DNA of 64,000 nucleotides from contig NZ_KI421500.1 in assembly GCF_000473145.1 (NCBI RefSeq), positions 3,311,725 through 3,375,724 on the forward strand. Reading direction: 5' to 3'. The translations under genes were made by a program, and so were the position numbers. This document shows, one piece after another, positions 22,117 to 32,154 of the stretch. Source of the stretch: Leisingera daeponensis DSM 23529. Its GTDB lineage: Bacteria > Pseudomonadota > Alphaproteobacteria > Rhodobacterales > Rhodobacteraceae. A model generated the notes under the pieces. It was not told where the DNA came from. It searched no databases and saw only the letters and a list, made by a program, of their open reading frames with translations. The stretch's first letter is position 1, and each line of letters opens with the position of its first letter.

Positions 22117-23322
22117 ATGCCCAAGGCACAGCAAAAGGGATATGTGCTGGACACCCACCGGCTGTGCGATCCGGCGCAGACGCTGGCAACGGTCAGGCCG
22201 CATCTCGCTGGGATGGGCATTACCCGCATCGCCAATCTGACCGGCTTGGACCGGGTCGGGCTGCCCACCGTGATGGTGGCGCGGCCCAATTCCCGCTCCG
22301 TTGCGGTGTCGCTGGGCAAGGGGCTGACGCTGGAGGCGGCGCAGGCCTCCGGTGTGATGGAAGCGGTGGAGACCTGGCACGCCGAGCGGATCACGCGGCC
22401 GCTGCGGGCGGCAAGTTATGCGGACCTGCGGCAGGAGGTTCTGGTCGCCGATGTTGAGCGACTGCCGCGGGTCACAGGCGGCAGTTTCAATCCCCATGGC
22501 CGGATGCTGTGGGTGGAGGGCCTGGATCTGGTCTCCGGGCAGCCGCACTGGCTGCCGCTTGAAATGGTCGACACCGACTATACCGCGCGGCCTTGCGGCG
22601 GGCAGGGGGCCTTTCCGCGCACGACCAACGGGCTTGCCTCAGGCAACAGCCTGGCAGAGGCCACATGCCACGCCATCTGCGAACTGATCGAACGGGATGC
22701 GATCACCCTGTGGCACCACGCCCCCGCCGGTCCGCGGATCGACGTCGCGGCAATCGAAGATCCGCGCTGCCGCGAAGCGCTGGATCGGTTTGAGGCGGCA
22801 GGTTTGCGGGCGGGGATCTGGAACATCACCTCTGACATCGGCGTGGCCGCGTTTCATTGCATGATCTGCGAGGACGGCACCCGGCCCGGGCACATCGGGA
22901 TCGGCAGCGGCTGCCATCCGGACCGGGGCATTGCCCTGCTGCGGGCGCTGACAGAGGCGGCGCAGACCCGGCTGACCTATATCTCTGGCGCCCGCGATGA
23001 CCTGGATCCGGAGGAGTTCACGCCGCAGGCATCTGCCGGGCGCACGCAATATGTCCGCGGGCTGCTGGAGCTGTCGCCGGCAACCGCCCGTTTCGAGGAC
23101 TGCCCGGATTATTCCTCGCCCTCTTTTGAGGAGGATTTGTCCTGGCTGTTGGGCAGGCTTGCGGGGGCCGGCATGGACCAGGCCCTGGCGGTCGACCTGT
23201 CGCGTCCGGGTCTGGGGGTTTCTGTGGTGCGCGCGGTGATCCCTGGGCTGGAGGCGCCGCATGATGATCCCGATTACATCCCGGGTCCGCGGGCACGCGC
23301 GGCCGGGCAGGCCCGGCCATGA
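22117..23322 (+). CDS. YcaO-domain protein
   Basis: A 401-residue YcaO enzyme. YcaO proteins use ATP to activate backbone amides, making azolines, thioamides or amidines in ribosomal peptides and in some proteins. The ATP-site segments are visible: SLGKGLTLEAAQASGVMEAV with ETWHAE (about residues 68-90), SGNSLAEATCHAICELIERDA (about 173-193) and the later RALTEAAQTRLTYISGARDD. The C-terminus (DPDYIPGP..) is not the proline-rich PxPxP tail of azoline-forming members. Its stop overlaps the TfuA start by four bases. YcaO-TfuA pairs are linked to thioamide formation in methyl-CoM reductase and thiovarsolins, so thioamidation is the leading hypothesis; that is inference. Confidence 0.9.
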   Translation: MPKAQQKGYVLDTHRLCDPAQTLATVRPHLAGMGITRIANLTGLDRVGLPTVMVARPNSRSVAVSLGKGLTLEAAQASGVMEAVETWHAERITRPLRAASYADLRQEVLVADVERLPRVTGGSFNPHGRMLWVEGLDLVSGQPHWLPLEMVDTDYTARPCGGQGAFPRTTNGLASGNSLAEATCHAICELIERDAITLWHHAPAGPRIDVAAIEDPRCREALDRFEAAGLRAGIWNITSDIGVAAFHCMICEDGTRPGHIGIGSGCHPDRGIALLRALTEAAQTRLTYISGARDDLDPEEFTPQASAGRTQYVRGLLELSPATARFEDCPDYSSPSFEEDLSWLLGRLAGAGMDQALAVDLSRPGLGVSVVRAVIPGLEAPHDDPDYIPGPRARAAGQARP

Positions 23323-24665
23323 CAGCGGTTGTGTTTGCCGGCCCGACCATCCGGGCGGAAGAGGTGCAGGCCTATTTCGAGGCAACGGTTCTGCCCCCGG
23401 CCGGCCAGGGCGACATCTACAGGGCCGCCCGGCAGGGCGCCAAGGCCATCGGGCTGATTGACGGGTACTTCCAAGGTGTCCCGTCCGTCTGGCACAAGGA
23501 AATCCTGTGGGCGCTGGAGCAGGGGATCGCGGTTTTCGGCAGTGCCAGCATGGGGGCGCTGCGGGCGGCTGAGTTGTCTGATTTTGGAATGGTCGGCGCC
23601 GGCAGTATTTATGAAGCCTACGCCTCTGGCGCGTTGATCGACGATGATGAGGTGGCGGTGCTGCACAGCCCGGCAGAACTGGGGTTTGCGCCGCTAAGCG
23701 AGCCGATGGTGTCGATCCGGGCCACGGTTGCGCGGGCGCTAGGCGACGCGGTGCTGGACGCGGATCAGGCGGCGGCAGTGCTGAACGCCGCCAAGGCGCG
23801 GTTCTACCAGCACAGGGTCTGGGACCTGATCCTGGCGGATTTCCAGGCTGCGGCCTGGTGCGAACGGTTCAGGGCCTGGCTCAAATCCGGGCGAGTGGAT
23901 GCCAAGCGGGACGATGCACGGGAAATGCTGGCGGTGATGGCGGCCTATCTGAACGGCGAGCGCGGCCCCCTGCCGGCACCGCCTTTGAAAGTAGAGCGGA
24001 CGCTTGCCTGGCAGACCCTGGTGCGGCGTATCGAGGCGGAGGCGCATCTGTTGCAAGCGGAAGACCGGCGGGTGCTGGATGAGCTGAGGCTGGACCCGGA
24101 CCGCTATGAGGGGGTCCGCACCCGTGCCATGCTGCGCCATCTGGCCTTGCAGGAAGCGGGCAAGAGCGGCCGCACGGTGAAACGTGAAGCGCTTGCGGCG
24201 CAAATGTCGGCGCATCGCAAGGCGCTGGGCCTGTTCAGCAGCGGCAGCCTGCGAAAATGGCTGGAGGACAACGCGCTGTCCGCGGCGGATTATGAGGGCT
24301 GGCTGAGGGAGGCGGCCCTCGCCGGGACCGTGGCAGGCAGTTTGAACGGCCAGCTCGCCCCGCATCTTCTGGCGGAACTGCGGCAGGCGGGCGACTATGC
24401 AGCGCTGAAATCGCGGGCCGTGTCAAAGGAGCGGTACCTGGCGGCGCAGGAGCAGCCGGCCAAGCCGGTGACAGAGCAGGAACGGCTGCCGCTGACACTA
24501 TGGTACTTTGAAGAGCTGCTGCAGCGGGACGTCCCGGACCGGCTGGATGATTATCTGGAGGCCATTGGCTGCCGCAGCCGGGATGAATTCTATGAGCTGA
24601 TCCGGCGCGAGTTCATGTATCATCAAAGTCGCAATACACGGCCCGTATCAGAAGGCCGCGCGTAG
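23319..24665 (+). CDS. TfuA-like protein with long C-terminal extension
   Basis: Partner of YcaO. The N-terminal 165 residues match the TfuA core: FAGPTIRAEEV, a segment around GLIDGYF with SVWHKEILWAL, and GIAVFGSASMGALRAAELSDFGMVGAGSIYEAY. TfuA is thought to help deliver sulfur or assist the YcaO reaction. Known TfuA proteins are usually little longer than this core, whereas this one has about 280 more residues of charged, helix-rich sequence (from about position 170) that I do not recognise. The start codon overlaps the YcaO stop, so the two are translationally coupled. It ends 41 bases before the metallopeptidase gene. Confidence 0.85.
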   Translation: MTAVVFAGPTIRAEEVQAYFEATVLPPAGQGDIYRAARQGAKAIGLIDGYFQGVPSVWHKEILWALEQGIAVFGSASMGALRAAELSDFGMVGAGSIYEAYASGALIDDDEVAVLHSPAELGFAPLSEPMVSIRATVARALGDAVLDADQAAAVLNAAKARFYQHRVWDLILADFQAAAWCERFRAWLKSGRVDAKRDDAREMLAVMAAYLNGERGPLPAPPLKVERTLAWQTLVRRIEAEAHLLQAEDRRVLDELRLDPDRYEGVRTRAMLRHLALQEAGKSGRTVKREALAAQMSAHRKALGLFSSGSLRKWLEDNALSAADYEGWLREAALAGTVAGSLNGQLAPHLLAELRQAGDYAALKSRAVSKERYLAAQEQPAKPVTEQERLPLTLWYFEELLQRDVPDRLDDYLEAIGCRSRDEFYELIRREFMYHQSRNTRPVSEGRA

Positions 24666-24706
24666 GCAGGGCAAACGGCGGGGCCTTCGCAGACCGGGAG
24701 GACCGT

Positions 24707-26005
24707 ATGGACGACCCTTATGACTTGGCGGAGGAAGCGCCGGGGACGCGATTTCTGCTGTTTCCGCAATCCCCGTTCCGGATGGCGGAGCCGGCGCTGG
24801 AGCTGGTCGAGATTTCCGCACCCCCCGGCTCGTTGGGGCCAGGGCCGTCGGGGCCGCGGATGTATGTGGTCAACCCGGCGGGTAAGACCATACCCTTTGG
24901 GGCCATCGTGCCGGGGCCGTCCGGGCCGGGGATGTACCTCCCGCCCTGGAATGGTGAGGTTTATCCGCCGCCGGAACCGGATGAAGACGGCCACTTTTTC
25001 CATATCCTGCCGTCGGACCCCGGTTTCGAGGCGGCGCATTTGTTTGCCTCGGCCCATTTCACTTTGGATGTGTGGGAAGAATACTTCGGGCATCCCATCC
25101 CCTGGCATTTCGCCCGCGACTATGACCGGTTGGAACTGTCGCTGCTGCCCAGCCTGGACAACGCCCACATCGGCTGGGGCTTTCTGGAAACCGGCGGCAC
25201 GAGCGAGCATGGCGGCGAATACCGCGCCTACAGCCTGAATTTTGACGTTGTCGCCCATGAAGTCGGCCATGCCATCATCTACAGCGTTGTCGGAATGCCG
25301 GTCTCTGAGGATGTGCCGGGAGAGTATTACGGCTTTCATGAATCGGCAGCGGATATGGTGGCGCTAATCGCCTCGCTGCATTTCGGCTCTGTGGTCGAGG
25401 AGCTGCTGGAAAGCACCAGCGGCAATCTTTACACCTTCAACCAGCTGAACCGGTTTGCCGAGCTTGCCGGAAATGCACAGATCCGGATGGCGGCCAATAC
25501 CCGAACATTGCAGGAATTTGCGCGGGGCTGGAGCAGCGAGCATGCGTTGTCGGAGCCCCTGACCGGTGCGATGTTCGATATTCTGGTCGATATCTTCCAC
25601 GAGAGGCTGCTGGTGCATGATCTGATCACGCCGGAAATGGAGGATCTGTCCGACCATCTTGAGGAAAGCCCCTATTACAGCGACGTGATGCAGGAGTTGT
25701 TCAATGCGCGCTATGCGCTTGATCCTGAAGGGTTCCGCGTCGCTCTGCTGGAGGCGCGCGATTTCCTGGGCGCCTATCTGGCGGCGGCCTGGAGCATGCT
25801 GGAGGCGGAAACCCTCACTTACGCGGCGGTGGGGGAGGCGCTGCTGGCGGTTGACCGTGAAACAACCGGAGGCGCCTTTGAATCAATTATCGCAGGCAAC
25901 TTCAGAATGCGCGGGATTGGCCTGGTTGCGGCCGGTCCGCGACTGGCCGAAGCGGATGAAGACAGCCACGCGCATTCGGTGCGGACCCGGGTGCCGGATG
26001 AATGA
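24707..26005 (+). CDS. HExxH metallopeptidase (M4/M36-like gluzincin)
   Basis: A 432-residue protein. HEVGH at residues 184-188 and Glu212 in HESAADM form a gluzincin zinc site, the order seen in thermolysin and fungalysin families. No signal peptide is evident, so it may act in the cytoplasm. The N-terminal 100 residues are rich in Pro and Gly and contain PGPSGPxMY twice (45-53 and 69-77). GGGAGG lies just ahead of ATG 24707. Its position in a YcaO-TfuA operon suggests a role as leader or core peptidase for a modified substrate, by analogy with RiPP pathways; substrate and reaction are not shown by the sequence. Confidence 0.78.
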   Translation: MDDPYDLAEEAPGTRFLLFPQSPFRMAEPALELVEISAPPGSLGPGPSGPRMYVVNPAGKTIPFGAIVPGPSGPGMYLPPWNGEVYPPPEPDEDGHFFHILPSDPGFEAAHLFASAHFTLDVWEEYFGHPIPWHFARDYDRLELSLLPSLDNAHIGWGFLETGGTSEHGGEYRAYSLNFDVVAHEVGHAIIYSVVGMPVSEDVPGEYYGFHESAADMVALIASLHFGSVVEELLESTSGNLYTFNQLNRFAELAGNAQIRMAANTRTLQEFARGWSSEHALSEPLTGAMFDILVDIFHERLLVHDLITPEMEDLSDHLEESPYYSDVMQELFNARYALDPEGFRVALLEARDFLGAYLAAAWSMLEAETLTYAAVGEALLAVDRETTGGAFESIIAGNFRMRGIGLVAAGPRLAEADEDSHAHSVRTRVPDE

Positions 26006-26152
26006 TTGGCCCAATGGCTGTAAATTCTATCCTTTTTGTGCTACTTTCACCCTCAGGGGGACTTTTCCGAAAAATAGAGTGGCGCCAATTGCGCTCGCGG
26101 CATTGCGAAAAGATCTTCTGGTGTTGTTTCCATAGCCACGGGAGTGTGTGCG

Positions 26153-27007
26153 GTGGCCGAATCCTTACTGAGTTTTTCTGAAGTGCTGTTATTTGGACGT
26201 CTGGTCGAAGACATCAAAATTGTCCCCAAATTCGCCGGGGCCATCGTCGGCACGGTCAACAATGTTCAGAACCTGAAGGGCACGTCGGTGAACGGTGAAA
26301 CGCTCGCGCCGGGTGACAAGATCCTGGTGATGGCGCAAACCGCCAAAGGGCAAAACGGCCTCTATAAAGTCGGGGAGGGCGACAATAACCCTTGGGGAAA
26401 TCAGCAGAGGTTCCCGAAGGGAACGATAGTCGAGATTGCTCACGGACCCCGCCAGGGCCTGTGGAAGCAGGTTGGCGATTACAACGCAGGACAGCAGGAG
26501 TTTATACGGGCCGGAAAACGGCAGCAAAGAAGCCGCGGCCGCAATAATATGCTGGCTGATCAGTTGAGTGATGATGCCAGGCTCGCGCGTATCTACGGGT
26601 TCGCCTATGAAGGCACGTATTTCGAGCTGCCAGAGCCGGTGATCTTCCTGGTGCATGGCGACGGCGAGAGTGCGACAGATGGCAACAAACCAGCGGAGCA
26701 GGCTGCCCGCGCACCCTTGGATCCTTCTGTGACCGGGGTTGCCTCAGCGGAATACCAGATCGCAAACGACATCCGGGTTTGGGATTATGACAAGGCCGAT
26801 TATTCCATCCGCATGGACGTGATGACCGGTATGCTGGAGCAGGTGCTGCTGGATGTATACTTTGGCGGGGTCGGCCCTGATATCAGCGGTGCCAAGGTGA
26901 GCGGCGCCAAGGTGAGCGGTGCAAAGGTGAGTGGCGCCAAGGTGAGCGGGGCAAAAGTCAGCGGCGCCAAGGTGAGCGGGGCCAAGGCCCGCGGTTCAGG
27001 CGACTGA
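26153..27007 (+). CDS. Protein with C-terminal SGAKV repeats; candidate substrate of the YcaO cassette
   Basis: A 284-residue protein with no signal peptide. GTG 26153 is chosen because GGGAG sits eight bases ahead; a GTG at 26144 overlaps that site. Residues 33-112 resemble a small beta-domain common in phage tail-fibre proteins (NLKGTSVNGETLAPGDK, then QNGLYKV and GLWKQVGDY). Residues 245-279 are seven tandem pentapeptides, six SGAKV and a last SGAKA, then the tail RGSGD. Thiovarsolin precursors also have repeated cores beside YcaO-TfuA, so this may be the substrate. Alternatively the repeat, read as AKVSG, fits a pentapeptide-repeat beta-helix, although 35 residues is under two coils. It lies about 150 bases after the peptidase gene. 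Confidence 0.7.
   Translation: MAESLLSFSEVLLFGRLVEDIKIVPKFAGAIVGTVNNVQNLKGTSVNGETLAPGDKILVMAQTAKGQNGLYKVGEGDNNPWGNQQRFPKGTIVEIAHGPRQGLWKQVGDYNAGQQEFIRAGKRQQRSRGRNNMLADQLSDDARLARIYGFAYEGTYFELPEPVIFLVHGDGESATDGNKPAEQAARAPLDPSVTGVASAEYQIANDIRVWDYDKADYSIRMDVMTGMLEQVLLDVYFGGVGPDISGAKVSGAKVSGAKVSGAKVSGAKVSGAKVSGAKARGSGD
26885..26989 (+). repeat. Seven 15-base tandem repeats encoding SGAKV/SGAKA
   Basis: Seven in-frame copies of a 15-base unit (AGCGGTGCCAAGGTG type). Copies differ mainly at third codon positions: Gly as GGT, GGC or GGG, Ala as GCC or GCA, Lys as AAG or AAA, Val as GTG or GTC, Ser as AGC or AGT. The only amino-acid change is Val to Ala in the last copy. Confidence 0.95.
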
Positions 27008-27096: not shown

Positions 27097-28866
27097 TCAG
27101 AATCCCGCTTTTTTCAACCCTTCGACAAAGTGCTGGGTGTCTTCTTCCAGCCGGTCGGGCTGCACCTTGGCCCAGCGGTCCAGCGAGAAATTCGGATGCG
27201 CCTCGCGGTGGCGGGCCGCCATGGTGCGGGCCTGGTCGATGTCCCCCAGCTGCGCATAACTGGCCGCAAGCATGCGCTGTCCCTCGGTCGGGTTGTTCAT
27301 CTTTGTCAGCGTGTCGATCACCGCATCATACTGTTTGAGATTGTAATAGGCACCGCCCAGGTGCCAAAGGTACTGGTCCGGGAAATACGGGTTCAACCGC
27401 ATGGCCTGCTGCAGGTTTCCGATCGCGGCCTGGTTGTCGCCGGAATGGGCCAGCGCATCGGCGTAATCCGACAGCAGGTCTGCGTCATTCGGGTTTAGGG
27501 CCAGCGCGCGCCGGTAGGCGCCGATCGCTGCATCATGCTCCTTGCGGTACAGATGCACAAAGCCAAGCTCGCCAAATCCGCGGGCGTCGGTGGGGTCCAG
27601 TTCCACCGCCCGCTGCGCATATGACAGCGCCGTATCAAGCGCATGCTCGGCGTCCTTGGCCCAAGAATAGCGCCAATCGATATTCAAGGTCCGGGAGATC
27701 GCGGCAGAGGCCCGGGCATAGTCCTGATCGCGCGACAGCGCACGCTCGTACAGGGTTTGCGCCTCGCGGTTGTCCTGCCTTGTGTAGCGGAAAATATATT
27801 GCTGGCCGCGCAGGACATAGCCGTAGGCGGCCAGATCGGCAGGTGCTGTCTGAGCCATCCGCTTGCGCTCCTGGGCCTCGATCAGCACCGCCGTGGCGGC
27901 GACGATGGCGTCGGTCACCTCGTCCTGGATGGCGAAAATGTCGTCGATGTTGCGGTCGTACCGTTCGCCCCAGATGGTGCGGCCGGTTTCCGCGTCGATC
28001 AGCTCGACGGCTATCCGGACGCGGGCAGCGGCCCGCCGGACGCTGCCACGGGCGACATAGCGCACCCCAAGCTCCCGTGCTGCCTCCTGCGGCGGCTTGG
28101 TGCTGGCTTTGAAGAAAAAGGAGGAATTGCGGGCAATGACGAAAAGGTTCTTGAACTTGGACAGGTTCAGAATGATGTCCTCTGTCAGCCCGTCGGCAAA
28201 CCAGCTGTCGGACGGCTCTCCGCCCAGGCTGGTAAAGGGCAGCACCGCAACCGAAGGAATACCGGGCGGCGGGCGGTGCGCGGGCGGAGCCTCCGGGCGG
28301 CGGGTTGCCGCCATTGTTGCGCCCGCAACCTCGCTGCGGACGCAATAGGCCGCGACCGGCTCGGCGATGTTCTTGAGCATTTGCGGACCGAGGAATTCAA
28401 ACCCGAAGCGCAACCGGTTTCGGATCTGCTCATAGACCGACGCGCTGACGAAGACCCGGCCCGGCTCGGCGATTTCCTGCAGCCTCGCGGCAATATTCAC
28501 ATTATCGCCATGGATGCCGCGGTCATCGACCAGGATTTCGCCAAGATGCACCCCGGCCCGGAACCGGAGATGATGGTCTTCCGGCCGCGCGCGGTTGCTC
28601 TGTTCTGCTATGCGGTGCAGCTCAACGCCAAACTCGACGGCATTGGTGGCCGTCTCAAACAGTGCCAGAACCCCGTCGCCCCGGACAGCAACCACGCGCC
28701 CCTCATGCGCCTGACAGGCTGTTTCAAGCTGTTCCAGCAGGGATTTGAGGGCGCTGTAAGTGTCGATCTCGTCATTGCCCATTAGCCGGGCATAGCCGAC
28801 AACATCGGCAAACAGCACCGCGCCAAGCTGGCGCCGGACCGTTGTTGTCTCTTTGTGGCCGCTCAC
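27097..28866 (-). CDS. Class III adenylate/guanylate cyclase with TolB-like and TPR regions
   Basis: A 589-residue signalling protein. Residues 10-180 form a class III cyclase domain with metal aspartates in LFADVVGY and VRGDGVLALFE and the DNVNIAARLQ segment. A TolB/FlgO-like domain follows (SVAVLPFTSLGGEPSDSWFADGL, about 205-340), then at least four tetratricopeptide-like repeats to the C-terminus (for example ARGFGELGFVHLYRKEHDAA). This architecture is common in rhizobia and roseobacters. GTG 28866 is chosen because AGGAGGAGG precedes it; a longer frame upstream is GC-rich noise. It is tail-to-tail with the SGAKV-repeat gene, 89 bases apart. Confidence 0.88.
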   Translation of the reverse strand: MSGHKETTTVRRQLGAVLFADVVGYARLMGNDEIDTYSALKSLLEQLETACQAHEGRVVAVRGDGVLALFETATNAVEFGVELHRIAEQSNRARPEDHHLRFRAGVHLGEILVDDRGIHGDNVNIAARLQEIAEPGRVFVSASVYEQIRNRLRFGFEFLGPQMLKNIAEPVAAYCVRSEVAGATMAATRRPEAPPAHRPPPGIPSVAVLPFTSLGGEPSDSWFADGLTEDIILNLSKFKNLFVIARNSSFFFKASTKPPQEAARELGVRYVARGSVRRAAARVRIAVELIDAETGRTIWGERYDRNIDDIFAIQDEVTDAIVAATAVLIEAQERKRMAQTAPADLAAYGYVLRGQQYIFRYTRQDNREAQTLYERALSRDQDYARASAAISRTLNIDWRYSWAKDAEHALDTALSYAQRAVELDPTDARGFGELGFVHLYRKEHDAAIGAYRRALALNPNDADLLSDYADALAHSGDNQAAIGNLQQAMRLNPYFPDQYLWHLGGAYYNLKQYDAVIDTLTKMNNPTEGQRMLAASYAQLGDIDQARTMAARHREAHPNFSLDRWAKVQPDRLEEDTQHFVEGLKKAGF

Positions 28867-28915
28867 AAGCTGTCCTCCTCCTGTGAGTGCGGGCTGAGGC
28901 CGCCGGTGCCGCCGC

Positions 28916-29566
28916 TCATCCGTCTGGCGGGGCCGGCGGGCCCGGCGGCCAAGCCCACCCGGCGGCTTCTGCGCCGCGGAAACTGACTCGCGGGCTGGCG
29001 CCGAGTTGCTGCGCCAGCGCCTTGCGGCTGGCGTCCCACTCCTCCCGCAGGAGGCCGACGGTGACCATGTCAAAAAAACGGCCTTCTGCAAACCATGCGG
29101 CCCGCATCCTGCCTTCGGTTGCAAAGCCGGCACGCGCTGTCATTTGCTCGCTGCGGGTGTTGTCGGCCCGGTAGTACGATGTAACGCGATTTAGCCCGAT
29201 CTGCCGGAAGGCAAAGTCCAGAAGCAGGGCCAGGGCGCGGATTCCCACGCCCTGTCTGCGCCTGGATTTTTCGATGAACATGGCGACCACGGCATCACGG
29301 TTCACCGCAGAGATGCTCTCCAGGCCGGTTATGCCGCACAGCTCACCCGAGACCGTGGTGAGCGCAAACCAGCATTTGCTGGCATTTGGCTTTGTGTCGC
29401 CGAAAAGCTCCCATGCCTGCTCAAGTCCCGCCGCGCTGAGCGGCACGCGGGTGGAGCGGTCGAAACGGGCCATGTCGGCTATGTTTTGAAGCCAGCCTGC
29501 GGCCGTGGCGAGATCCTCTGTTTCCAGCGGCCTGAGCTGAAAACCTGCTGAATTCCGGTCCGGCAT
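28916..29566 (-). CDS. GNAT-family N-acetyltransferase (RimJ/RimL-like)
   Basis: A 216-residue acetyltransferase of the ribosomal-protein-acetylase type. FQLRPLETEDL is the usual start, EKSRRRQGVGIRALALLLDFAF the acetyl-CoA motif, and NRVTSYYRADNTRSEQMTARAGF the late conserved helix. The last 30 residues become Pro/Gly rich and are probably disordered. ATG 29566 follows AAAGGGGG. It reads toward the cyclase gene in the same direction, 49 bases upstream of it. Substrate unknown. Confidence 0.82.
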   Translation of the reverse strand: MPDRNSAGFQLRPLETEDLATAAGWLQNIADMARFDRSTRVPLSAAGLEQAWELFGDTKPNASKCWFALTTVSGELCGITGLESISAVNRDAVVAMFIEKSRRRQGVGIRALALLLDFAFRQIGLNRVTSYYRADNTRSEQMTARAGFATEGRMRAAWFAEGRFFDMVTVGLLREEWDASRKALAQQLGASPRVSFRGAEAAGWAWPPGPPAPPDG

Positions 29567-29672
29567 CCGCCGCCCCCTTTCAATTTGCAACACCTGCCTC
29601 TCCGGGTGCCAGCCCTGGCCGGAAAAGCGCAGCTGCAGACTTATACCACACTTCCGGGCCGGCTTGGGGGAT

Positions 29673-30382: not shown

Positions 30383-30979
30383 ATGCTCTGCCGCATGCCC
30401 GATGCCCTGTCCATTGTTGTTGTCGAAACCGACCGTGAGCGCGCCTTCATGATTGTGGACGGGCTGCGGGACGCGGGTGAATTCGACATTCAGGTTATCT
30501 CGGAGCCATCAGGCCTTGCGCGTCAGATACAGATGCGCGACCCGGATGTGGTGCTGATCGATATCGCCAACCCCTCCCGCGATGTTCTGGAGGAGCTGAC
30601 GCTGGCCTCAGGCGCCATGGACCGGCCAGTGGCGATGTTTGTGGACCGCAGCGAGGACGGCATGACTGCGGCCGCTGTTGAAGCCGGGGTGTCGGCCTAT
30701 GTGGTTGACGGGCTGCAGGCCGCGCGGCTGAAACCGGTCTTGGACGCAGCCATCGCGCGTTTCCGGCTGTTTCAGCGCATGCGCACCGAACTTGCAGAAA
30801 CCAAAAGGGCCCTGGAAGAGCGCAAGGTCATCGACCGCGCCAAAGGGATGGTCATGAAGGCCAGGGGCATCGGCGAAGACGAAGCCTATGCGCTGCTGCG
30901 AAAGGCCGCGATGGACCAGAACAAGCGCGTCGCGGAGGTTGCGCAGGCGCTGGTCACCGCGGCAGGGCTGCTGGCATGA
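30383..30979 (+). CDS. nasT: Nitrate-responsive ANTAR antiterminator NasT
   Basis: A 198-residue response-regulator-like RNA-binding protein. The N-terminal receiver has an Asp in DVVLIDIANP; the C-terminal ANTAR domain is clear in ERKVIDRAKGMVMKARGIGEDEAYALLRKAAMDQ, split here by position about 145-180. In known systems NasT binds a two-hairpin leader and stops premature termination when NasS releases it in the presence of nitrate or nitrite. The start is uncertain: ATG 30383 or ATG 30395, neither with a good ribosome site. The stop overlaps the nasS start (ATGA). Confidence 0.9.
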   Translation: MLCRMPDALSIVVVETDRERAFMIVDGLRDAGEFDIQVISEPSGLARQIQMRDPDVVLIDIANPSRDVLEELTLASGAMDRPVAMFVDRSEDGMTAAAVEAGVSAYVVDGLQAARLKPVLDAAIARFRLFQRMRTELAETKRALEERKVIDRAKGMVMKARGIGEDEAYALLRKAAMDQNKRVAEVAQALVTAAGLLA

Positions 30980-32154
30980 GCGCAACACGCATTCCCGCTG
31001 GTTATGTTCCGCTGACTGATGCGGCGCCGCTGATTGCGGCGCAGGAAATGGGCTTTGCCGCCGAAGAACGGCTGGTGCTGGAGCTGCACCGCGCGCCCTC
31101 CTGGTCATCCCTGCGCGACATGCTGGCCTTCGGGCAAGTGGATGCTGCTCAGATGCTCGCGCCGGTGCCGGTCGCTGCGGCGCTTGGCGTTGGCGGCGCC
31201 AGCACGCCGTTCTCTGTTCTGTCCGTGCTGTCCGTCAACGGCACCGTCATTGGGGTCAGCAGCAGCCTGGCCCGCAGACTTGCCGATGCAGGGCACGATT
31301 TTTCCTTCGATGACGCCGCATCCGCTGGCAAGGCCCTGATAACCGCAACCGGCCCTGGCCTGCGGATTGGCGTGCCGTTTCCCTTTTCCATGCATACGGA
31401 ACTGCTGCACTACTGGCTGCAAGGGCTGGCGGCGGACACCGGCCGCGGCATCAGCATCCGCACGGTTCCGCCGCCGCTGATGACCGATGCCATCAAAAGC
31501 GGTGAGATAGACGCGTTCTGCGTTGGCGAACCCTGGGGATCCCTCGCGGTGGAAAATGGCGCGGGGGCGCTGCTGTTGCCCGGGCGGGCGATCTGGTCCT
31601 TTGCGCCGGAAAAAGTGCTGGCCGTCCGCAGTGCCTGGGCAGAGGCCGAACCCGGACTGGCCGGCCGCCTGATCCGGGCCCTTTGGCGCGCGGGGCGCTG
31701 GCTGGCCGACCCGGCCTCCCGCGGGCTGGCGGCGGAAATCCTGTCCGCGCGGCGGTATCTCGATCTCCCCGCCGAAATCATCGAACGGGCGCTGTCGGGA
31801 AAGTTCACGGTCACGCCCCAGGGACTGCAGCGTGAAGTCCCCGGATTTATCGGCTTCCATGACGGCGCGGCGGGCTTTCCCTGGCGCAGCCAAGCCCAAT
31901 GGATTGCGCTGCAACTGGCGGAGCGGACCGGCCTCGACCGGCACAGGGCGCTGCGAATGGCCGGGCCGGTCTTTCGCAGCGATCTTTACCGCTCCGCCCT
32001 GCGCGGGACCGGTGCGGATTTGCCCGGCGCCTCGTCGAAACTGGAAGGCACGGTCGGCACCCCGCTGCTGGCCGCAGGAGAATCGGGGACGGTCAGTCTG
32101 CTGCCGAACCGGTTCTTTGATGGCCGTGTTTTTGATCCCATGGCCGCGGACTGA
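30976..32154 (+). CDS. nasS: Cytoplasmic nitrate/nitrite sensor NasS
   Basis: A 392-residue protein of the NrtA/CmpA periplasmic-binding family but without a signal peptide, as expected for NasS, which binds nitrate or nitrite in the cytoplasm and sequesters NasT when ligand is absent. Ligand-binding family segments are visible: VPLTDAAPLIAAQEMGF, FGQVDAAQMLAP, IDAFCVGEPWGSLAVENGAG. It is four-base coupled to nasT, supporting a 1:1 complex. The downstream nrtA product has the same fold with a signal peptide. Confidence 0.92.
   Translation: MSATRIPAGYVPLTDAAPLIAAQEMGFAAEERLVLELHRAPSWSSLRDMLAFGQVDAAQMLAPVPVAAALGVGGASTPFSVLSVLSVNGTVIGVSSSLARRLADAGHDFSFDDAASAGKALITATGPGLRIGVPFPFSMHTELLHYWLQGLAADTGRGISIRTVPPPLMTDAIKSGEIDAFCVGEPWGSLAVENGAGALLLPGRAIWSFAPEKVLAVRSAWAEAEPGLAGRLIRALWRAGRWLADPASRGLAAEILSARRYLDLPAEIIERALSGKFTVTPQGLQREVPGFIGFHDGAAGFPWRSQAQWIALQLAERTGLDRHRALRMAGPVFRSDLYRSALRGTGADLPGASSKLEGTVGTPLLAAGESGTVSLLPNRFFDGRVFDPMAAD

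Follow-up and report, generated by a model that had tools for sequence, protein, structure and literature searches.

The window analysed here is a stretch of 64,000 nucleotides from Leisingera daeponensis DSM 23529, and locus positions are given in window coordinates. It contains a locus in which genes for a YcaO enzyme, a TfuA protein, a metallopeptidase and a protein with a repeated C-terminal tail follow one another, and are succeeded by genes for a class III nucleotide cyclase and a GNAT acetyltransferase. This system exists as noted, is conserved and extends beyond its first description. We think it rather probable that it is a peptide-modification locus, in which the repeat protein is a large precursor whose C-terminal units form a thioamidated core, released by the peptidase, capped by the acetyltransferase and linked to cyclic nucleotides. 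The features of the locus are as follows.

22117..23322, plus strand: YcaO enzyme, 401 aa (PF02624, E 3.5e-86)
23319..24665, plus strand: TfuA, 448 aa, a TfuA domain (PF07812, E 5.8e-46) fused to a C-terminal extension of ~240 residues
23934..24662, plus strand: C-terminal extension of TfuA, weakly SurA/PpiC-like (TIGR04500, peptide-maturation partner)
24707..26005, plus strand: gluzincin metallopeptidase, 432 aa, M36/M4 fold
25256..25270, plus strand: HEVGH zinc-binding motif, residues 184-188 (gluzincin Glu, residue 212)
26153..27007, plus strand: predicted precursor protein, 284 aa from GTG 26153 (287 aa from 26144)
26153..26200, plus strand: conserved N-terminal motif of the precursor, MAESLLSFSEVLLFGR, from the alignment and from the starts and tails of the homologues listed
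26225..26524, plus strand: optional domain of the precursor, phage tail-fibre/capsid-decoration-like
26885..26989, plus strand: predicted core, seven five-residue units SGAK[V/A]
27097..29133, minus strand: class III nucleotide cyclase-TPR protein, convergent with the precursor gene (PF00211, E 9.3e-12, and TPR families)
28916..29593, minus strand: GNAT acetyltransferase, RimJ/RimL-like (PF13302, E 2.3e-15)

An earlier reading of this DNA, the original prediction, had described a four-gene cassette at 22117..27007. Its coordinates stand; its extent was too small, as the conserved locus reaches 29593 and takes in the cyclase-TPR and GNAT genes (the true starts of these two probably lie downstream of the listed GTGs). 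The details of the four genes were read correctly: ycaO and tfuA overlap by four bases (22117-23322 versus 23319-24665), the peptidase gene with its HExxH motif starts 41 bases after tfuA (24707-26005; HEVGH and a downstream Glu), the repeat protein ends in seven pentapeptides of equal length (six SGAKV and one SGAKA, 26885-26989), and no transporter is found among the cassette genes.

A contig scan anchored on the repeat protein gave 164 pattern matches, of which 113 were confirmed as relatives, and the best 80 of these 113 loci were analysed. They belong to Rhodobacteraceae, Mesorhizobium, Aurantimonas and several alpha- and gammaproteobacterial assemblies, and are rich in close Ruegeria and Leisingera kin, so that locus counts are not independent. 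Upstream linkage could be scored at 73 loci having at least 4.5 kb of upstream sequence, genes being sought within 9 kb. YcaO was present at 69/73, TfuA at 69/73 and the peptidase at 70/73. Clustering of the open reading frames (ORFs) of the 80 loci revealed no transporter among the gene families common to distant lineages; an ABC ATPase cluster occurred at 25 loci, 19 of them in Ruegeria.

YcaO was missing from four of the 73 loci (L033, L035, L036 and L093). For the first three, the contig that carries the precursor also carries the YcaO-TfuA-peptidase trio, in reverse orientation and without an adjoining precursor gene, as would result from an inversion within the locus. The presence of trio and precursor on one contig in these three Leisingera loci implies that the parts were kept after the rearrangement. 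At L093, which has peptidase and precursor, YcaO and TfuA were not found in the roughly 3.4 kb up to the contig end. The split trios (L130, L131 and L132) pair with L036, L033 and L035, the precursor-cyclase-GNAT part lying apart in opposite orientation in these three Leisingera-type genomes.

Linkage was also surveyed starting from the peptidase, across 394 genomes at family level and 385 at class level. In the family survey the peptidase was found in 8 genomes, with TfuA adjoining in 8/8, while TfuA occurred in 14 genomes overall. In the class survey a strong peptidase match (>300 bits) was found in 8 genomes, again with TfuA adjoining in 8/8, for 21 genomes with TfuA overall; five weak matches (<54 bits) had no TfuA match adjoining. 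The two surveys overlap in G000 and G055, so that TfuA adjoins the peptidase in 14/14 distinct genomes with a strong match. A precursor-type gene followed the peptidase in 13/13 readable genomes (G469 is cut by a contig end); it was read by tblastn or as an ORF in twelve, and in G608 by a weak profile match alone (23 bits). In G630, TfuA, peptidase and precursor are present, and tblastn found no YcaO within 14 kb.

As a control, we took 12 alphaproteobacterial TfuA loci without the peptidase, comprising 6/6 such genomes from the family survey and six out of 13 from the class survey. None had a peptidase or precursor match (tblastn E-values here refer to small local databases), and a scan for repeat-tailed ORFs was equally negative, which indicates that the occurrence of a repeat-tailed precursor is tied to the peptidase. 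YcaO, TfuA, peptidase and repeat gene, whose co-occurrence the original prediction had put forward as its check, thus form a conserved unit.

The repeat protein has many relatives (214 homologues with a first profile, 268 with a second). Its start is more likely GTG 26153 than 26144, because the closest homologues start at MAESLL. In the window, the six SGAKV and one SGAKA are followed by ARGSGD. These seven units are encoded by six different DNA sequences, and the ratio of non-synonymous to synonymous differences between units (pN/pS) was 0.10 (pooled, 79 loci), a value lowered in part because units were chosen on protein similarity. The abundance of synonymous differences shows that the DNA of the units was not copied recently. 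Moreover, whole arrays switch jointly, from all Lys to all Arg, with Arg codons that vary among the units of one gene, a pattern suggestive of selection for uniformity among units and not of fresh duplication.

Among the homologues listed, the unit types were SGAKV (111), SGARV (45), RGASV (15), RGANV (12), SGMKV (7) and 19 rarer types, and 8/230 had no run of at least 3 units. Exactly one Lys or Arg was present in 1197 of 1245 pentad units (223/231 proteins), at position 4 in 1025 and at position 1 in 172; 15 units had a basic residue at both positions and 33 at neither. Gly was present in 1243/1245 units, and the last residue was Asp 211 times and Glu 16 times. All these sequences are mutually related, so that the counts are not independent trials. 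Other units occur in the divergent cassettes: pentads MSARG or NARGA at Rhizobiales loci, six-residue units AYSGGK (L101), MASRAV (G608, 9 exact and 11 near copies) and DLVGRS (G750, 4 copies), and a four-residue unit GMNV in about 4 copies (G630). Five tails are unrepeated (G435, G546, G001, G007 and G146), and an NCBIfam search of an unrepeated sister precursor gave no match.

The N-terminal motif and a central domain are conserved, and the tail swaps as a block by lineage. The phage tail-fibre/capsid-decoration-like domain lies between these two conserved parts in long precursors only, and is absent from short precursors of ~190 aa. A constant front joined to units variable in length and sequence is the way RiPP (ribosomally synthesised and post-translationally modified peptide) precursors evolve. 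The protein therefore behaves as a dedicated precursor, which supports its proposed role as the substrate; like the precursors of YcaO-TfuA RiPPs it is linked to its enzymes and combines a conserved leader with a variable core, with a front far larger than the usual leader.

A genome-wide PF02624 search gave one match, namely the cassette YcaO, and its match in the PDB was MJ1094 (6pe3/6peu, E 2.1e-38). Residues 3-168 of TfuA match the TfuA structure 6xp8 (E 1.6e-31). The closest NCBIfam models of both are those of McrA-glycine thioamidation, TIGR03266 for YcaO (235.4 bits, under the cut-off of 365) and NF033432 for TfuA (196.1 bits, under 235.2), so that the pair falls outside the McrA equivalogs. 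With adjacent ycaO and tfuA genes, the locus has the arrangement of YcaO-TfuA thioamidated RiPP pathways. The extension of TfuA is weakly SurA-like: TIGR04500 was matched by 9/13 aligned extensions (best E 3e-7; 5.1e-4 for that of the window) and SurA_N_3 by 3/13 (best 0.0099), all far below the curated cut-offs, and a PDB sequence search of the extension gave no match. Short TfuA proteins (about 260-296 aa) without a SurA-like extension occur at several loci among L089-L098 and L100.

The peptidase sequence matched no known family, and an NCBIfam search was also blank. H184, E185, H188 and E212 are invariant in 22 aligned homologues, the last lying in 'HESAAD', and the structure model has the thermolysin/fungalysin (M4/M36) fold, so that HExxH motif, downstream Glu and modelled fold together make it a gluzincin of the M4/M36 type. 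The matched region begins at residue 14, which in this model would leave little room for a signal peptide or propeptide. The role given to the peptidase in the original prediction, trimming of the product, is compatible with the modelled fold.

The cyclase-TPR and GNAT families emerged from the ORF clustering as common to distant lineages. By tblastn at 71 loci having at least 3.5 kb of downstream sequence, the cyclase-TPR gene was found at 68/71; it is transcribed towards the precursor gene in 59 of them and in the same direction in 9 (Mesorhizobium-type loci). The GNAT gene was found at 57/71, or 60/71 when a second type is counted, an unrelated-looking RimI-like GNAT of about 150 aa that occupies the same place in L083, L086, L087 and L101. 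Both flanks were available at 67 loci, of which 62 had YcaO, TfuA, peptidase and cyclase together and 51 had all six genes. The genome of the window encodes 11 class III cyclases, a number for which chance adjacency amounts to a few per cent. In a tree with only 4 outgroups (three paralogues of the window's genome and one unlinked cyclase), the 72 cassette cyclases group as a single clade with support 0.991. Residues D110, D153, N213 and R217 (numbering of the window ORF), which we take to be the two metal-binding Asp and two active-site residues of class III cyclases, are invariant in 72/72, as expected of members of this class.

The link to cyclases takes a second form in five divergent cassettes (G001, G007, G435, G608 and G750), which have a gene for a cyclase-AAA protein of 1004-1131 aa directly upstream of ycaO. 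Both PF00211 and PF13191 were matched in 5/5, and G001 and G007 have no more than two PF00211 genes each. G546 has the cyclase-TPR type downstream; in G630 the cyclase of the window gave no match in the 14 kb searched. A cyclase with a catalytic domain was also present within about 6 kb at 8 of the 12 peptidase-free TfuA loci (L164, L166, L169 and L171-L175), where about 0.3 were expected from a hand computation (cyclase counts x 12.5 kb / genome size). The cyclase link is thus wider than the present cassette, and a TfuA-cyclase link may be general.

By its genes and by the behaviour of the precursor, the locus appears to belong with the YcaO-TfuA thioamidated-RiPP-like pathways, with a thioamide as the predicted product. 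The genes, their conservation and the evolution of the tail are observed, thioamidation we infer from family knowledge, and the cleavage sites, the capping and the role of the cyclase are proposals. The folded front of the precursor would bring the tail to the YcaO-TfuA pair. YcaO and TfuA, the latter with its own SurA-like partner domain, would then turn one backbone amide per unit into a thioamide, at the expense of ATP and a sulfur donor. Thermolysin-like peptidases prefer cleavage before a hydrophobic residue. The M36/M4-like peptidase may accordingly cut the modified tail before V, M, L or Y, one of which is carried by most units, to yield short peptides ending in Lys or Arg, for example VSGAK. 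The freed peptide would be capped by the GNAT enzyme, and the cyclase-TPR protein would couple the pathway to cyclic-nucleotide signalling. TfuA is described as aiding YcaO thioamidation by hydrolysing thiocarboxylated ThiS (PMC8939145, PMC13063428). Formation of azolines or other heterocycles was considered as the shared chemistry and judged unlikely, since none of RGANV, RGAMV, NARGA and MNARG contains Ser, Thr or Cys; Cys is present in only 1/231 tails.

Several observations weigh against this reading. At about 150-320 aa and largely folded, the precursor is far above the usual size of RiPP precursors, and the set comprises neither a transporter nor a sulfur-carrier gene. Peptidase and precursor occur with no YcaO found alongside in L093 and G630, and neither the Mesorhizobium loci nor certain others have the GNAT gene. 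The five unrepeated tails imply that repetition is not essential, and no single residue marks the site, given MASRAV units without Gly and GMNV units without Lys or Arg. Finally, with cyclases near 8/12 peptidase-free TfuA loci, the cyclase is not specific to the cassette.

Some of these points bear on the possibility that the system modifies a protein instead of producing a peptide: the thioamidated tail would stay on the precursor, in the manner of McrA or uL16, and act inside the cell, for instance as a ligand of the TPR part of the cyclase, and the peptidase would remove or recycle the protein. This would suit a set without a transporter and a precursor that is large and folded, as well as the regular company of cyclases, both the downstream TPR type and the second type upstream in the divergent cassettes; furthermore, E. 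coli YcaO recognises a folded protein and not a short motif (PMC13063428). Uniform repeated units accompanied by a dedicated protease, however, resemble cores made for release, and binding of the tail by the TPR part is without structural support, so that we regard this alternative as possible, on the unlikely side. A wider proposal, built on the two cyclase architectures and on the cyclases of the control loci, is that alphaproteobacterial thioamide-forming YcaO-TfuA systems are part of cyclic-nucleotide signalling, with the tail or the cut peptide as an intracellular ligand controlling a dedicated class III cyclase; we put it forward as doubtful speculation.

That the tail is a structural element, such as the right-handed beta-helix of pentapeptide-repeat proteins, and that YcaO and TfuA act elsewhere, seems improbable to us. 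The A(D/N)LxG pattern is indeed similar to AKVSG and ANVRG, PDB searches with tails hit designed pentapeptide-repeat chains, and PF00805 was matched by 19/30 aligned homologues up to E 0.05 (best 5e-7), including those with RGANV/RGASV units; some homologues carry a precomputed PF00805. The protein of the window, however, with E 0.036, scored 14.1 bits against a cut-off of 20.2, and six or seven pentads would make under two coils. The five-residue register is moreover broken by four- or six-residue units, by MSARG and NARGA and by tails without repeats, which a pentad helix could not tolerate, and an AlphaFold2 (AF2) model from only 30 aligned sequences gave the tail as coil (predicted local distance difference test, pLDDT, about 40). 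An anti-phage or stress-sensing system, with the phage-tail-fibre-like domain serving as sensor or decoy and an alarm signal produced by the class III cyclase, as in Pycsar, is more improbable still. It would account for the phage-like domain of long precursors and for a cyclase that is always close, and PADLOC PycC models match the cyclase domain (E 4.4e-11); this weak match is limited to that domain, though, and any class III cyclase should give one. The remaining five proteins, namely YcaO, TfuA, peptidase, precursor and GNAT, matched no PADLOC model, short precursors have no phage-like domain, and a search of a viral collection with the precursor gave no match.

Among known systems, the peptide-modification locus favoured here is closest in outline to the thiovarsolin (var) pathway of Streptomyces varsoviensis, whose precursor has repeated cores and whose products are N-acetylated APR peptides with a Pro-Arg thioamide (PMC6511847). 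The two share YcaO and TfuA, a repeated core with one basic residue per unit and, if the GNAT caps as proposed, modified peptide ends. Thiovarsolins are reported to need only VarA, VarY (YcaO), VarT (TfuA) and VarO, release and acetylation being ascribed to endogenous enzymes (PMC6511847), whereas the present locus has dedicated metallopeptidase, GNAT and cyclase genes, and its precursor of 150-320 aa has a folded front. Genes for a heme oxygenase (varO), an amidinotransferase and an ATP-grasp enzyme were not among the families common to distant lineages in the ORF clustering, no profile search having been made for them. With McrA thioglycine formation (PMC5589413), the locus shares the YcaO-TfuA pair; it differs in its scores under the curated cut-offs and in a substrate that is a linked repeat protein. 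The action of E. coli YcaO on uL16 sets a precedent for a folded substrate (PMC13063428), but that enzyme is of another YcaO family (NF040716, 25 bits here), and TfuA is reported not to lie near uL16-type YcaO. The rosaritide partner MirC, a SurA-like TIGR04500 protein essential to its peptide-modifying enzyme (PMC13097080), is weakly related to the TfuA extension; in the present locus TfuA itself carries the domain, and the ATP-grasp enzyme is not among the conserved families of the clustering.

The pairs of YcaO and TfuA for which the literature cited here describes proven products are those of actinobacterial RiPPs and archaeal McrA, those of Proteobacteria being known mainly from genome mining (PMC8120280). 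Malit et al. 2021 found YcaO-TfuA loci common in Proteobacteria and mention Ruegeria with Nif11-like precursors; the present precursor, peptidase and cyclase are not described in the accessible part of that work (PMC8120280). Our search of the open literature with repeat strings and gene-combination terms gave no account of the present system, subscription papers, supplements and outside preprints lying beyond its scope. The locus offers a concrete candidate substrate with a repeated core visible in its sequence, in culturable genera, so that thioamidation is directly testable. Precursor searches are usually limited to short genes, and a precursor class with a large folded front and an optional phage-fibre-like domain could escape them. 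The cyclase link, if true, would join a rare backbone chemistry to second-messenger signalling.

Further along the window, positions 30383-32154 hold a gene for a response-regulator/ANTAR protein (PF03861); next comes an ORF whose product may be a substrate-binding protein, and the two perhaps serve nitrate-type regulation.

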